This document shows, piece after piece, positions 49,016-54,069 of a stretch of DNA of 64,000 bases. Location of the stretch: positions 1 through 64,000 of IMG/VR virus record IMGVR_UViG_3300043425_001190; one strand, written 5' to 3'. Numbering within the stretch: the stretch's first letter is position 1; each line of letters opens with the position of its first letter. A program made the translations under genes and the position numbers. Origin of the DNA: a virus. The notes under the pieces are model-generated. The model did no database searches, was not told where the DNA came from, and worked only from the letters and a program-made list of their open reading frames with translations.

Positions 49016-49272
49016 TTTATCATCCTGTTAATCTCTGATGTGTCGTATGACTGCGCTGGCTCGTCATCTCCCTGGCCGGTATTTACCCCATCCTCTTTCG
49101 CCTTCTTTATCTCGTCAATGTGTTTATCCACATAATAGTTGATGTCGTTTAGCGAGGTTCGGTAAAACCCAGCTAACGGTTGGTTGAACTCTTTCATAAA
49201 AAGATAAGATACATCAAGCAGATATGCTATCTCTTGGTATATGGCGTCGAGGTCTCCTAACCTTAACGCCAC
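48994..49272 (-). CDS. Tail-assembly chaperone, second frame (92 aa or frameshift extension)
   Basis: It could start at GTG 49272 (AAGGA upstream) or be reached by -1 frameshifting from 49263-50096. It is helical (YQEIAYLLDVSYLFMKEF), ending in an acidic, polar tail. It lies directly before the tape-measure gene, the usual place for the T part of a G/GT-type chaperone pair; in T4 the analogous genes are 26 and 51. Confidence 0.65.
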   Translation of the reverse strand: MALRLGDLDAIYQEIAYLLDVSYLFMKEFNQPLAGFYRTSLNDINYYVDKHIDEIKKAKEDGVNTGQGDDEPAQSYDTSEINRMIKCPTQPQ

Positions 49273-49284
49273 ACCACAAAAAAA
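49243..49284 (-). promoter_or_regulatory. Programmed -1 frameshift signal
   Basis: On the minus strand the slippery run T-TTT-TTT (49284-49278) is in the correct phase (GAT TTT TTT G). After a 7-nt spacer comes a two-tier hairpin: GGCGT/ACGCC and AGGT/ACCT (49270-49243). Slipping back one base enters the frame of 48994-49272 exactly. Confidence 0.65.
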
Positions 49285-50096
49285 TCCTTATCCAACAAAT
49301 TAGAGATCACCTTGTACTTGTTAGTGCACGATTCACATGTGACGTCGTTTACCTTCACCAGCTTTGAAATCTCCTTTGATATGTTGGCAATATTCATCTC
49401 GGAGATCCGGTTTACCACGATGTTTGGCAACGACAGCATAACCTTAATTTTATCAGCGAGAGGTCTACCATCAAAACTCATACTAACCTCACCGATTTTA
49501 ATTGCCGAAATGGTGGATGCCATAATCAACACGTTTTTGACCTGGTCGATATCCTCCTTACTCATGTCACCGAACGCCTTTTTGTCGGCAAAATAACTGG
49601 CAATGTAAGACTCTAGGTTTTTATTGATTTCTTTTACGTCACCGTATAGAGGGTGGTTTACGTCAACTGAAATCCTACCACACTCAGCATGCATCGGGTA
49701 TTCAACTTCGGCAATGGCCGAGTAGTATGCCTGCATTACCCCGTCAACAATCATGTCGATTTTAAGCTGATTTGGGTTCTTGCAAACGGGACACTCGCTA
49801 GTCATGTTGATCTCTGGACCATAAGCCGTTACTCTGGTGTGGGCCAAAAGGAAACTTACGTCCCAATCCGGTAGCGCATTAATATCAATTGACTGGTCGA
49901 CTAATGTTCTCTTGACCAAATCAACACTTCGTTCAACTTTTTTTGATGAGTCGGCTGATACCGACTTTAAGGTATCAAGTCTGTGTTTAGCTGTAATATC
50001 TCTAGTTTTGATTTCAAGTTTCGATACCGGAAGCTTAACTTCATGTGCAAAGTCGTCTGACTCCATAGCGGCCAAAAGGTCTTTAATATCCGACAT
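49263..50096 (-). CDS. Tail-assembly chaperone / baseplate hub protein, gp26-like
   Basis: 277 residues (T4 gp26 is 208). It contains a zinc-finger-like set: CPVC near residue 102, a His/Cys pair near 135 (HAECG), and CESC near the end. The family (T4 baseplate protein type) assists hub and tape-measure assembly. The C-terminus reads DKDFFVVWR, where the slippery T7 lies. A -1 product would be about 371 residues, fused to the next frame. Confidence 0.65.
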   Translation of the reverse strand: MSDIKDLLAAMESDDFAHEVKLPVSKLEIKTRDITAKHRLDTLKSVSADSSKKVERSVDLVKRTLVDQSIDINALPDWDVSFLLAHTRVTAYGPEINMTSECPVCKNPNQLKIDMIVDGVMQAYYSAIAEVEYPMHAECGRISVDVNHPLYGDVKEINKNLESYIASYFADKKAFGDMSKEDIDQVKNVLIMASTISAIKIGEVSMSFDGRPLADKIKVMLSLPNIVVNRISEMNIANISKEISKLVKVNDVTCESCTNKYKVISNLLDKDFFVVWR

Positions 50097-50124: not shown

Positions 50125-51720
50125 TTACCGCAGAGATAGAATTTCGTCAACCTCTTTTTCTACCTCTTTGAGCTCCGCCAATGAGAAAGGCGCTGTATAC
50201 GCTCCACCAACCCTTTTCTGTTGCGCAGAGGTGAAGTGCCCTATTAGCTCTCCTACGTCGAGACCGGTTTCCTTCCATCCAACAAGGTAGTTGAACAGTT
50301 TGTCTCTAACAGGGTTAGGGAATGTGTGGTTGCCAACACGTTTAAACCTGTGAACCCATCTTATCCATGGTAGGCACATTACTTTATGTCCAGCGTTACG
50401 GTATTTCTGGTGGATATATCCTTCCTCACCACCCCACGATCTAAAATGCTTGCTGAAGCCAGGCCATGATCTTTTGGCCGCCATAAACAGACCCATTCCA
50501 TGCATCGGAATCTCAAACGGGATGTTGTCACGCCTTGTTTTCTCCGTCCATTTTCCAAAGAACAGTTCGTTCCATACAGGATCCATATGGCTAGCCCAGT
50601 CGTTTCCCATATGATCAACCAGTATGCCATGATATAGGTCATCGGTTATTGGTTCTAGCAGAAATTGTTGTAATTTGTCAGCCCCGTCTGGGTTCAGTAA
50701 AACATGGCAATCAATCACCAGAACATAATCGCTTGTCGCCAGGTTAAACAGCTCGCTACGAATTGATGTGGACTTCTTTTCGGTGTGGGTAATATATCTG
50801 ACAACGCCGCCACCTAGGGTTGCCGTCAATTTACCATCTTCACTATCTGGGTTATTATCTAAAATAATAACTTCGTTTATCAACTTTTTGAACGGTCCGT
50901 TCATCAATGATGCCAACGAAAAGAAGACACCCTGATAATCATCATAGCACGCCATACCAACAGTAAGAGTGGCCTGCCGTATTGTCTTTGGCTCTTTAAA
51001 TTTTCTGACTTTATTATACTGGTCAGAGTTATTGGTATTGTTAACCAGGTCGTTTAGGCATACACGGCCAGATTTTATGGACCCGTTGTCCATAGCCGAT
51101 TTGACAGTACTCTTTATTCTTTGCTCCCGGCCTTCGATATCGCCAAACACTGAGGCGCTGTATATGTTGCTACCAACCCGGTAAACAAGAAGACCTTCGG
51201 TCAGCGGTTTAAAACGTTTAACTCTAGAACCACTTTCCATCTTCGTTCTGGTGGTTTGGTCAAAGTCGTACTGGTGGGTGTTGAACGAGTATCCTCCCCT
51301 TTCAACAAGAGTCTTCTTATTATACATCACCCAGTTTGGGGCGGTAGACTCGGTGATACTATGGATGTTGCCAGCGTTTTGCAAGCAATACCCATGCGGA
51401 GATACCACATCATATTCGGCTGTCTTAATAATTGCCTCATAGGACCCCAGTACCCACGGCATCCAAACATCGTCATCATCAAGAACCGTTACATATTCGC
51501 CAGTTGTATACCCGACAGCTATATTATGGGCGTCTGGAAGATTTGGTCTAAAATCTAGGTTATACACTTTAATGTTATCGTACCCATCTAAAACTAGATG
51601 CTGATCAACATTGGTGTTTAGTATTACTAACTCGGAGTTTATTACATTCTGGTCTAGGAAAGATCGTATAGTTTCCGGAAGTGAAACCCTGCCGTACACC
51701 ACACATATGACGGATATCAT
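50125..51720 (-). CDS. Two-domain GT-A glycosyltransferase
   Basis: 531 residues. The first GT2-type domain (1-230) has the start MISVICVVYGRVSLPETI and the metal-binding DDDD at 81-84. The second (about 243-500) starts VGMACYDDYQGVFFSLASL, has a DCH motif in VLVIDCHVLLNPDG and ends with GGEEGYIHQKYRNAG, the acceptor/catalytic region of polypeptide-type GT2 enzymes. It probably transfers sugars to a protein or glycan. It is joined by ATGA to the PPPVTTE-repeat virion gene, in the middle of the baseplate operon. Confidence 0.8.
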   Translation of the reverse strand: MISVICVVYGRVSLPETIRSFLDQNVINSELVILNTNVDQHLVLDGYDNIKVYNLDFRPNLPDAHNIAVGYTTGEYVTVLDDDDVWMPWVLGSYEAIIKTAEYDVVSPHGYCLQNAGNIHSITESTAPNWVMYNKKTLVERGGYSFNTHQYDFDQTTRTKMESGSRVKRFKPLTEGLLVYRVGSNIYSASVFGDIEGREQRIKSTVKSAMDNGSIKSGRVCLNDLVNNTNNSDQYNKVRKFKEPKTIRQATLTVGMACYDDYQGVFFSLASLMNGPFKKLINEVIILDNNPDSEDGKLTATLGGGVVRYITHTEKKSTSIRSELFNLATSDYVLVIDCHVLLNPDGADKLQQFLLEPITDDLYHGILVDHMGNDWASHMDPVWNELFFGKWTEKTRRDNIPFEIPMHGMGLFMAAKRSWPGFSKHFRSWGGEEGYIHQKYRNAGHKVMCLPWIRWVHRFKRVGNHTFPNPVRDKLFNYLVGWKETGLDVGELIGHFTSAQQKRVGGAYTAPFSLAELKEVEKEVDEILSLR

Positions 51721-52547
51721 AAGGTCACAGTCAGGGTTACTGAGTTATCATAATCGCCGTTAAACAGCATGTTTGATGAACCAATCGGTACCACAAAACT
51801 TGACATTTGGCCACCTTGAGCACCAGGTAACGCCGGGTATGCTGGGTACATATAGAACTCACCAATATGTACAGTTACCGTGTACGTGTCCCAGTTAATG
51901 GTAAACCCAAAGGTTCCGGCCTCTAGGTTACCAGTGTCATACTGGTATGTTCCGTTACTGACGGTTGATACCGCCACCGATCCCGATGTTGAGAAGGCCG
52001 ACGCTGGCGCGTACCCTGGACTATATGAAAACGAGAACATAATCGGCGAGGATCTTGGCTGTAAAGGTGGCTCCGTTGTCACAGGTGGCGGCTCGGTAGT
52101 GACAGGTGGCGGCTCCGTTGTCACAGGTGGCGGCTCGGTAGTGACAGGTGGCGGTTCAGTAGTGACAGGTGGCGGCTCCGTTGTCACAGGTGGCGGCTCG
52201 GTAGTGACAGGTGGCGGCTCGGTAGTGACAGGTGGCGGCTCGGTAGTGACAGGTGGCGGCTCGGTAGTGACAGGTGGCGGCTCAGTAGTGACAGGTGGCG
52301 GCTCGGTAGTGACAGGTGGCGGCTCGGTAGTGACAGGTGGCGGCGGAGGTTTTGGCCTACTAGATACAGCTCCACCCTGACTTGGTATATCGTTATTGTC
52401 GGATTTGACGGCCGATAGAAGCCACCTTCTGTCAGAGATTGCCTTCTGCATTACACCCTGTAAAGAAGACGAAACGGTAGTTTCGCTGGCCAAACGGCTG
52501 AGCGGGGTTGATCTCTGTGTTGGTCCGTTGCCGTACGCTCTTAGCAT
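51717..52547 (-). CDS. Virion protein with 13 PPPVTTE repeats
   Basis: 276 residues from ATG 52547 (AGGAC upstream). After a short N-terminal region comes a stalk of PPPVTTE repeated about 13 times, proline/threonine-rich like mucin and other O-glycosylated stalks, then a C-terminal beta-rich domain of about 110 residues (FSFSYSPGYAP, GTFGFTINWD). The stop overlaps the glycosyltransferase start (ATGA). It is probably part of the baseplate or a fibre attached to it. No similar stalk occurs elsewhere in the window. Confidence 0.7.
   Translation of the reverse strand: MLRAYGNGPTQRSTPLSRLASETTVSSSLQGVMQKAISDRRWLLSAVKSDNNDIPSQGGAVSSRPKPPPPPVTTEPPPVTTEPPPVTTEPPPVTTEPPPVTTEPPPVTTEPPPVTTEPPPVTTEPPPVTTEPPPVTTEPPPVTTEPPPVTTEPPPVTTEPPLQPRSSPIMFSFSYSPGYAPASAFSTSGSVAVSTVSNGTYQYDTGNLEAGTFGFTINWDTYTVTVHIGEFYMYPAYPALPGAQGGQMSSFVVPIGSSNMLFNGDYDNSVTLTVTL
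52066..52335. repeat. 21-bp tandem repeat array
   Basis: Twelve 21-bp units (GGTGGCGGCTCGGTAGTGACA on the plus strand) preceded by one 18-bp unit. Most units are identical; three (the 1st, 3rd and 6th) carry the synonymous variant CCGTTGTCACA, suggesting expansion by unequal exchange. The array codes for PPPVTTE on the minus strand. Confidence 0.9.
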
Positions 52548-52557
52548 ATTATGTCCT

Positions 52558-54069
52558 TTAGAATTGGTACCATGATGGCTGTGGTGGGGCTTCTGATATG
52601 GTACTGGTGGTTTTGGTTTGATCAAATGACGTGCCGCCAGCATCATACGCAGCGCTAGTATACTCACCAGAAGGTGTTGGCGGTGCAGTAAATGGCGACT
52701 TAACCGATTCCCATGCTGACGAGGCACCATCAGATACCTTGTCGCCAACGTAACCAGCACCGTCTGAAACAGCGCCTCCGGCTGACCGTACAGCACCGCC
52801 AACTGACTTACCAAACACCCCGGTGTTATTTTCTAAACCGGTGAACACTTTAGCCCCATATTCACCAAGACCGGCACCTTGGTTATATATTCCCTCAGCT
52901 GAGTTCATTACTGCGCCCATGTTATCAAGGGTTAGACCACCATTTTTGATGCCGTCTACAGTGCTTTTGACTGTTTTAATAAGATCTTTGGCTTTATTGA
53001 CCTCGTTCTTGACGTCGCTATACACTTTTATGCCACGACGAACGTCTGTAATAGCGTCCCTAAACCCATAAGGTTTTGATCCAACCGGGTTTTCTGGTGT
53101 AATGCCAGGAAGAGGGGTTGTCTTTGGGATAAACTTAAATTTGTCTTGCGCCAACTTACCAAGGCCAGGTTTCTTTTTAGTAGATGACACAGATGTGGTT
53201 GATGTAGTCTTAGCCTCACGTTGAACGGCCACCCTGCGGTATGAAATACCAACACTGAAGGTTGATAACTCTTCGGTAGTGTAGTCTAAATCTTCACCGG
53301 AAATTGATTCAACCTGCGATCCGTAGTATTTGTATGTCACAACGTTCTCGCCGTTAAAAGAATAACGGTTAATAGTGATGATAGCCTGGTTGTTGAATGA
53401 GTTACCAATTTGTTCGATATTTGCCGTATTATTGGCAATGTTGTCAACCACATTGTAATCGGTATTTCTTCTTGATGCCATGGTATATAACGCTTGACGC
53501 AAGATGCCGGCTGAATCATCTAGAAAGTCTATTTTTAGGTTTTCTACCGTAACACCGGTAGGGACTTTAACCGGTAGACTGTTTATAGACGGTTTTATCT
53601 CCATAAACTGAGTTGTCGTGCCAGGTATGTTGACGGACCTGACAAAAATCTCGGCTGCTTCACCAGAAATTTCTATAGTAGACTCAGTTTTTACGCCACC
53701 TGTGCTGGCATAGACATCATCAATAATACCAGCAAACTGTCCACCAAATTTGACTGTCCACAGGTACTTTGGTGTTGGAGCTACAGCCGAGGTTTCTGAC
53801 CCACGAACAACAAGAGAGTAATACTTTGACATCAAATCTTTTAGCTGGGCTTTACCACCAGCAGATGTTGAGAACCTGTTGATTTCCTCGTCTGGTGTAG
53901 GCTCCATGTACGCAGGTTCACTGAACTCAGCCGGTAACTTAACCTCTTCTCCCCAGCCAATTTTACCAGGCGGCAGGAACTCCTCTGGTGTGATCCGTTT
54001 ATGCTTATTGCTCAGACCCTTTGCTGGGACTGATCCAAAAATGTCTTCTGCCGAGTCAAGTATTCCCAT
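52558..54069 (-). CDS. Baseplate tube-initiator protein, gp54/gp48-like
   Basis: 503 residues. Residues 95-280 follow the tail-tube fold: YLWTVKFGG, SVNIPGTTTQFMEIKPSIN, then a long helix (DDSAGILRQALYTM) and final strands (TYKYYGSQVESISGE). The second half is Ala/Gly/Ser-rich, low-complexity and probably disordered. It would cap the baseplate where the tube starts. A late box lies 21 nt upstream. Confidence 0.6.
   Translation of the reverse strand: MGILDSAEDIFGSVPAKGLSNKHKRITPEEFLPPGKIGWGEEVKLPAEFSEPAYMEPTPDEEINRFSTSAGGKAQLKDLMSKYYSLVVRGSETSAVAPTPKYLWTVKFGGQFAGIIDDVYASTGGVKTESTIEISGEAAEIFVRSVNIPGTTTQFMEIKPSINSLPVKVPTGVTVENLKIDFLDDSAGILRQALYTMASRRNTDYNVVDNIANNTANIEQIGNSFNNQAIITINRYSFNGENVVTYKYYGSQVESISGEDLDYTTEELSTFSVGISYRRVAVQREAKTTSTTSVSSTKKKPGLGKLAQDKFKFIPKTTPLPGITPENPVGSKPYGFRDAITDVRRGIKVYSDVKNEVNKAKDLIKTVKSTVDGIKNGGLTLDNMGAVMNSAEGIYNQGAGLGEYGAKVFTGLENNTGVFGKSVGGAVRSAGGAVSDGAGYVGDKVSDGASSAWESVKSPFTAPPTPSGEYTSAAYDAGGTSFDQTKTTSTISEAPPQPSWYQF

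Follow-up and report, generated by a model that had tools for sequence, protein, structure and literature searches.

A GT27-like glycosyltransferase encoded beside a mucin-like repeat protein in a phage tail gene cluster: a candidate system for O-glycosylation of a phage protein

Mucin-type O-glycosylation in animals is initiated by the polypeptide GalNAc-transferases of family GT27. In the serine-rich-repeat glycoprotein systems of Gram-positive bacteria, dedicated glycosyltransferases, GtfA and GtfB, are encoded beside the gene for a low-complexity, Ser/Thr-rich acceptor, and the known glycosyltransferases of these systems have the GT-B fold. Mucin-type glycosylation and the placement of a dedicated glycosyltransferase gene beside that of its acceptor are both already known outside phages. 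Glycosyltransferases are usually hard to pair with their acceptors, and, to our knowledge, there are hardly any examples of phage particles with glycosylated proteins, although glycosylated virions of mycobacteriophages Che8 and Rita were reportedly described by Freeman et al. in 2023. A passage in a further source states that particle proteins of these two phages are glycosylated and suggests phage glycosyltransferases as the cause; the targets it names are capsid proteins and, unlike the protein discussed here, that passage reports no mucin-like tract for them (PMC11256854). Ser/Thr polypeptide acceptors are also used by the GT60 polypeptide α-GlcNAc-transferases of protists and prokaryotes, which share a GT-A clade with GT27 and GT7/chondroitin synthase (PMC7185993). 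In the open-access literature, we found no description of phage GT27-like enzymes or of mucin-like tracts in phages; an unseen one may exist.

The window, i.e. the whole stretch of DNA analyzed here, comprises 64,000 nucleotides of an 87.3-kb IMG/VR record, and blastn against INPHARED found no close relatives of this phage. On the minus strand, which carries all the window features described below, the gene for a mucin-like repeat protein of 276 aa (P0001, 51717..52547), the proposed acceptor, starts behind a good ribosome-binding site (AAAGGACATAATATG) and is followed by the gene for a two-domain glycosyltransferase of 531 aa (P0002, 50125..51720). The ATGA overlap proposed for these two genes in the original prediction is present as TTATGA, where the TGA stop of the repeat gene and the ATG start of the enzyme gene overlap by 4 nt. 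The pair had also been placed between a gp54-like and a chaperone gene, of which the former fits and the latter was not confirmed: the upstream neighbour (52558..54069) encodes a tail-tube-like ('gp54-like') protein that matches phrog_4542 and, weakly, PF06841, with no relative found in IMG/VR, and the downstream neighbour (49263..50096) encodes a T4-type baseplate hub protein (PF12322, T4_baseplate; phrog_150, 'baseplate hub'). With the same-strand order of wedge, hub/lysozyme-like, T4_baseplate, glycosyltransferase, repeat protein, tail-tube-like, tube, sheath, tube-like and terminase genes, the pair sits inside a T4-type tail gene cluster.

P0001 is laid out as an N-terminal portion of 66 aa, a Pro/Thr tract and a C-terminal part of ~115 aa. 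The 13 PPPVTTE repeats that had been counted in the tract are borne out by TRF and by the translation: they are consecutive and perfect at the protein level, occupy residues 69–159 (52071..52343) and contain 26 Thr, so that P0001 qualifies as mucin-like by its tandem Pro/Thr(Ser)-rich repeats. This is the sole tandem array that TRF detects in the window and the sole genuine mucin-like tract of the 87.3-kb record, the other tract matches in which look like wrong-frame composition artefacts. At the DNA level, 4 of the 21 columns of the unit vary, every one of them a third codon position, and all 12 departures from the consensus proved to be synonymous vs. 30% expected for random changes, with the reservation that the 12 are partly linked and do not represent 12 independent events. 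Because the differences between units are all synonymous, the repeat appears to be under protein-level conservation rather than being a mere DNA repeat. P0001 has no family in Pfam or PHROG and no relative in IMG/VR, and its C-terminal part has no match by tblastn in INPHARED; matches in a scan for the PPPVTTE DNA pattern were mostly single and scattered, with two only in one locus (L146).

The motifs pointed out earlier in P0002 were all confirmed, namely, DDDD at residues 81–84, DCH at 337–339 and GGEEGY at 430–435. The description of the enzyme as GT2-type fits domain 1 (aa 1–245; 50986..51720), which contains the DDDD motif and matches PF00535 (E = 2 × 10−21) and phrog_14775, with weak matches to TuaG, WcaA and other polysaccharide glycosyltransferases, but undersells domain 2 (aa 246–531; 50128..50985), for which the nearest solved enzymes are polypeptide GalNAc-transferases. 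When P0002 was modelled over its full length, a lack of relatives left domain 1 at low confidence; a second (elongating) activity of this domain is possible. The AlphaFold2 model of domain 2, with 58 non-redundant relatives as input, has a pLDDT of 92.6 and a pTM of 0.92, and its best 50 PDB matches in Foldseek are all polypeptide GalNAc-transferases (GT27), with E-values down to 3 × 10−16 and a TM-score of ~0.7 by query. Within the predicted DxH metal-binding motif (D337-C-H339; 50704..50712), D and H are found in 92 of 92 phage and 75 of 75 cellular relatives; the C-terminal His (H457; 50350..50352), which pairs with the metal-binding His of GALNT2, is present in 90 of 90 phage and 75 of 75 cellular relatives where aligned; and the GGEE motif (aa 430–433; 50422..50433) aligns with the WGGE(N) segment of GALNTs. 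D337, H339 and H457 correspond to D209, H211 and H344, which are important residues of GALNT1 (PMC4202792). At the sequence level, domain 2 also matches GT2 in Pfam, and phmmer against the PDB places human GalNAc-T2 first and T10 next, with weak E-values of 0.013–0.04 and an alignment that covers the catalytic domain, matching DCH to DSH and WGGEE to WGGEN and bringing the downstream His residues of the two proteins into register. A profile of the enzyme family (A1) recovers GalNAc-T10 at 7 × 10−5 and a broader profile (A2) does not; these sequence profiles are weak and reach chondroitin synthase and a β-1,3-GlcNAc-transferase as well.

Compared to GT27, domain 2 is alike in the modelled GT-A fold, the DxH + His site and the GGE segment, and P0001 resembles GT27 acceptors in its Pro/Thr-rich tandem repeats. 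The differences are that no ricin-type lectin domain is found in Pfam, the protein ending soon after the catalytic core, that the xED position is Glu (GGEE vs. GGEN in GALNTs), and that domain 2 is joined to a GT2 domain in this phage and would work in the phage/bacterial cytoplasm. Because the sequence profiles are weak, the lectin domain is absent and the xED position is Glu, the modelled domain is GT27-like rather than a proven GT27 member. The Glu at this position makes an inverting mechanism possible, so that inverting and retaining mechanisms could both fit; GT27 is grouped with GT60, GT7 and chondroitin synthase, and this group has inverting as well as retaining members (PMC7185993). 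The enzyme, of a family with at least 477 relatives confirmed in one scan, is covered by no PHROG family and matches nothing in INPHARED: domain 2 had no match in PHROG at 0.001, tblastn searches of INPHARED with P0002, its domain 2 and two family members gave no match, and BFVD contains only one close protein for the enzyme. By its Pfam matches, the family differs from GT60: the GT60 model (PF11397) is absent from the matches of 59 members up to E = 1. Like the enzymes of the serine-rich-repeat systems, P0002 is encoded beside its low-complexity, Thr-rich candidate acceptor; unlike them, it is GT-A/GT27-like. DNA glycosylation by P0002 was considered and rejected, as neither fold nor context supports it.

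Relatives of the enzyme were drawn from IMG/VR by enzyme homology alone and reduced to 58 non-redundant loci at 90% identity, and all ORFs were scanned for strict tracts, defined as stretches of 30 aa in which P/S/T make up at least 80% and S/T at least 45%. Within 500 bp of the glycosyltransferase gene, a total of 58 kb contained 19 strict tracts (32.8 per 100 kb), compared to 5.2 per 100 kb at 0.5–1 kb and 0 at 4–6 kb, the density dropping about tenfold between the first 500 bp and 1–4 kb. Unrelated viral DNA contained 2 strict tracts in 988 kb (0.2 per 100 kb), a background that is, if anything, inflated by the choice of its loci by a PPPVTTE-like DNA pattern. Farther out on the same contigs, there were 8 tracts in 756 kb (about 0.5–1 per 100 kb at 1–20 kb), and 4 of these 8 are near tracts recounted because the outer stretches begin 1–2 kb from the gene. 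As a control, 29 regions around other GT2 genes that these phages carry yielded 1 tract in 203 kb (0.5 per 100 kb). A second, non-overlapping set of 34 further non-redundant loci, obtained with another lead sequence, gave 12 strict tracts over the 33 kb that lie no more than 500 bp from the glycosyltransferase gene (36.7 per 100 kb). Under a relaxed cut-off of 65% P/S/T, the linkage holds and the background rises (43 vs. 4.7 per 100 kb); the window's own tract, which is milder (5 of 7 residues are P/T), fails the strict cut-off and is included at 65%.

In the usual layout, the tract gene lies directly upstream of the glycosyltransferase gene on the same strand, with a gap of 8–45 nt; gaps of 8–13 nt recur among divergent pairs, and some tracts lie 1–4 kb away instead of adjoining the gene. 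For about half of the relatives, no tract lies near the gene. The tract sequences differ (T-runs, PTTST, TSTSTS, TTETPS, PPPVTTE), so that composition, and not acceptor ancestry, travels with the enzyme; judged by sequence comparison, the pairing of enzyme and tract is conserved as a kind and not as a sequence, and numerous unrelated phages from the environment carry a gene pair of this kind. In a tree of the enzymes, no fewer than 8 changes of the near-tract label are required, and the window forms a long separate branch and thus counts as a further instance of the pairing. A lack of conservation of the pairing, which would have spoken against the original prediction, is not what we observe at the level of protein kind, because tracts are far above background in two non-overlapping sets (32.8 and 36.7 vs. 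0.2 per 100 kb). The proposed decoration of the Thr-rich stalk by the enzyme gains strong comparative support from the GT27-like fold and from the enrichment of tracts in both sets, but not at other GT2 genes. No support was found in this analysis for the alternative target, the lysed host surface.

Other arrangements were observed among the viral loci. Thirteen glycosyltransferase genes (L009, L039, L040, L042, L046, L057, L062, L064, L068, L073, L080, L081, L083) follow an unrelated gene of ~340 aa (MLVTYIRSSSYNNY...) and have no tract nearby. On the contigs of L058 and L056 (regions L451/L452), a PTTTGGPTTTSV repeat protein is encoded near another GT2 gene, and the GT27-like gene there is without a nearby tract. 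One GT27-like enzyme (L010:5983-7383) carries a C-terminal methyltransferase-like part, recognized by weak NCBIfam matches, and sugar methylation is conceivable in this case.

The sequence C[NK]xLx[FY]-stop ends 26 of the 90 genes upstream of the enzyme (e.g. CNKLGF; L050, L023, L036, L038, L043, L047, L052, L067, L078, L027, L028, L079 and others), and the 5 other ORFs in the enzyme loci with this ending are all tract proteins, compared to 0 of 1,113 background ORFs; P0001 is without this tag. Starting conversely from DNA that encodes CNKLGF-stop, a scan identified 12 in-frame ORF ends: those with strong tracts are followed by a glycosyltransferase gene in 8 of 8 cases, two related T/E-rich ones have no such gene after them, and two look like chance. 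A large T/E-rich phage protein (L457:11171-14476, L472:1-1470) ends in EDCNKLGF with no adjoining GT27-like gene. The interpretation of the tag as a ribosome-binding site for the glycosyltransferase gene was rejected because tract proteins away from that gene carry it too. From its distribution in sequences, C[NK]xLx[FY] is possibly a recruitment or anchoring tag.

Relatives of domain 2 are also encoded in 123 stretches of GTDB genomes. Most of the 80 retrieved cellular relatives have a long N-terminal part before the GT27-like domain (e.g. L245:5026-6840, L260:4969-6867; loci L239–L318), which matches HprK-related kinase A (TIGR04352) below cut-off in 2 of 3 tested, and PqqD-like neighbours occur at two cellular loci. 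The cellular enzymes thus recall HprK-related kinase A/PqqD neighbourhoods, unlike the phage enzymes, which stand alone or, in the window, are fused to a GT2 domain. Across 75 non-redundant cellular loci, tracts reach a density of 12.7 per 100 kb in the first 500 bp and drop to 0 at 4–6 kb; that bacterial relatives show the same trend suggests that the putative GT27-like/tract chemistry is not confined to phages. Small S/T/P-rich proteins were seen near the GT27-like gene in cellular loci. Genes that appear sulfotransferase-like by eye ('IFLHIGKTAG', 'VFVHVPKAGG') occur near the glycosyltransferase gene (L245:8100-8756, L257:8896-9522, L014:5322-5945) and could add sulfate to glycans; the one in L245 has no match in NCBIfam.

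Surface polysaccharides are the targets of many phage glycosyltransferases, and P0002 might likewise modify the host surface (LPS, O-antigen or teichoic acid), so as to exclude superinfecting phages or convert the serotype, with an incidental adjacency to the repeat gene. The polysaccharide glycosyltransferases weakly matched by domain 1 and the weak match of 3 of the 59 family members to the PHROG 'GtrB-like O-antigen conversion' are consistent with such a role, which we nevertheless consider unlikely: tracts are found near the GT27-like family and are lacking near the other GT2 genes that these phages carry, the predicted fold is nearest to polypeptide transferases, and P0002 overlaps a gene of the tail cluster by 4 nt. 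Alternatively, given that the window pair lies within the tail cluster and that some tracts are 1–4 kb off, the two genes could have come together by module hitch-hiking, tail/fibre regions of large phages gathering low-complexity stalks and glycosyltransferase genes such that adjacency does not signify enzyme and substrate. The roughly tenfold fall in density from 500 bp to 1–4 kb, the low density at 1–20 kb on the same contigs, the recurrence of 8–13 nt gaps in divergent pairs, and the presence of the C-terminal tag on tract proteins of these loci but on none of the background ORFs make this explanation similarly improbable.

P0002 could also glycosylate other phage proteins (capsid or tail, as in mycobacteriophage Che8), with the repeat serving as a flexible proline-rich spacer. 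Virion protein glycosylation is reported for Che8 and Rita in work cited in a passage of PMC11256854, and the relatives without a nearby tract, about half of the total, would fit such targets; however, Thr/Ser, and not Pro alone, are enriched beside the gene, in very different sequences among phages, and we regard this as a very improbable account.

The combination of sequence comparison and structural modelling instead makes it likely that P0001 and P0002 form a dedicated two-gene phage cassette for protein O-glycosylation. ATGA-coupled translation would yield enzyme and acceptor together. In the cytoplasm of the host, while late genes are being expressed, P0002 would use its GT27-like domain, with a divalent metal held by DxH/His in catalysis, to transfer a sugar from a nucleotide sugar, probably UDP-HexNAc, to Thr residues of the PPPVTTE stalk, and a second sugar may be attached by the N-terminal GT2 domain. 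The stalk would thereby become a glycosylated bristle that is stiff, extended and resistant to proteases. Given that both genes are in the tail cluster, its most likely site is the tail or baseplate, and the benefit could be shielding or stiffening. These observations point to a phage system, not described before, that would coat a phage-encoded protein with sugar.

A broader proposal, for and against which we see the case as evenly balanced, is that these genes belong to an undescribed, widespread prokaryotic 'mucin-type' O-glycosylation, in which GT27-like enzymes are each encoded beside their own fast-changing Pro/Ser/Thr-tract acceptor, many with the C[NK]xLx[FY] recognition/anchoring tag. 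Under this proposal, phages would sugar-coat a phage-encoded, probably virion, protein, the bacterial enzyme would be fused to a kinase-like domain, and such enzymes may be the ancestors of the eukaryotic GALNTs. If the pairing of enzyme and acceptor holds, each phage would name its own pair by adjacency, so that the acceptors of a large unannotated glycosyltransferase family become directly testable, and bacterially expressible enzymes would be at hand for glycoengineering. It would also explain the Thr-run proteins of environmental phages and would extend mucin-type chemistry, best known in eukaryotes, to phages and bacteria.
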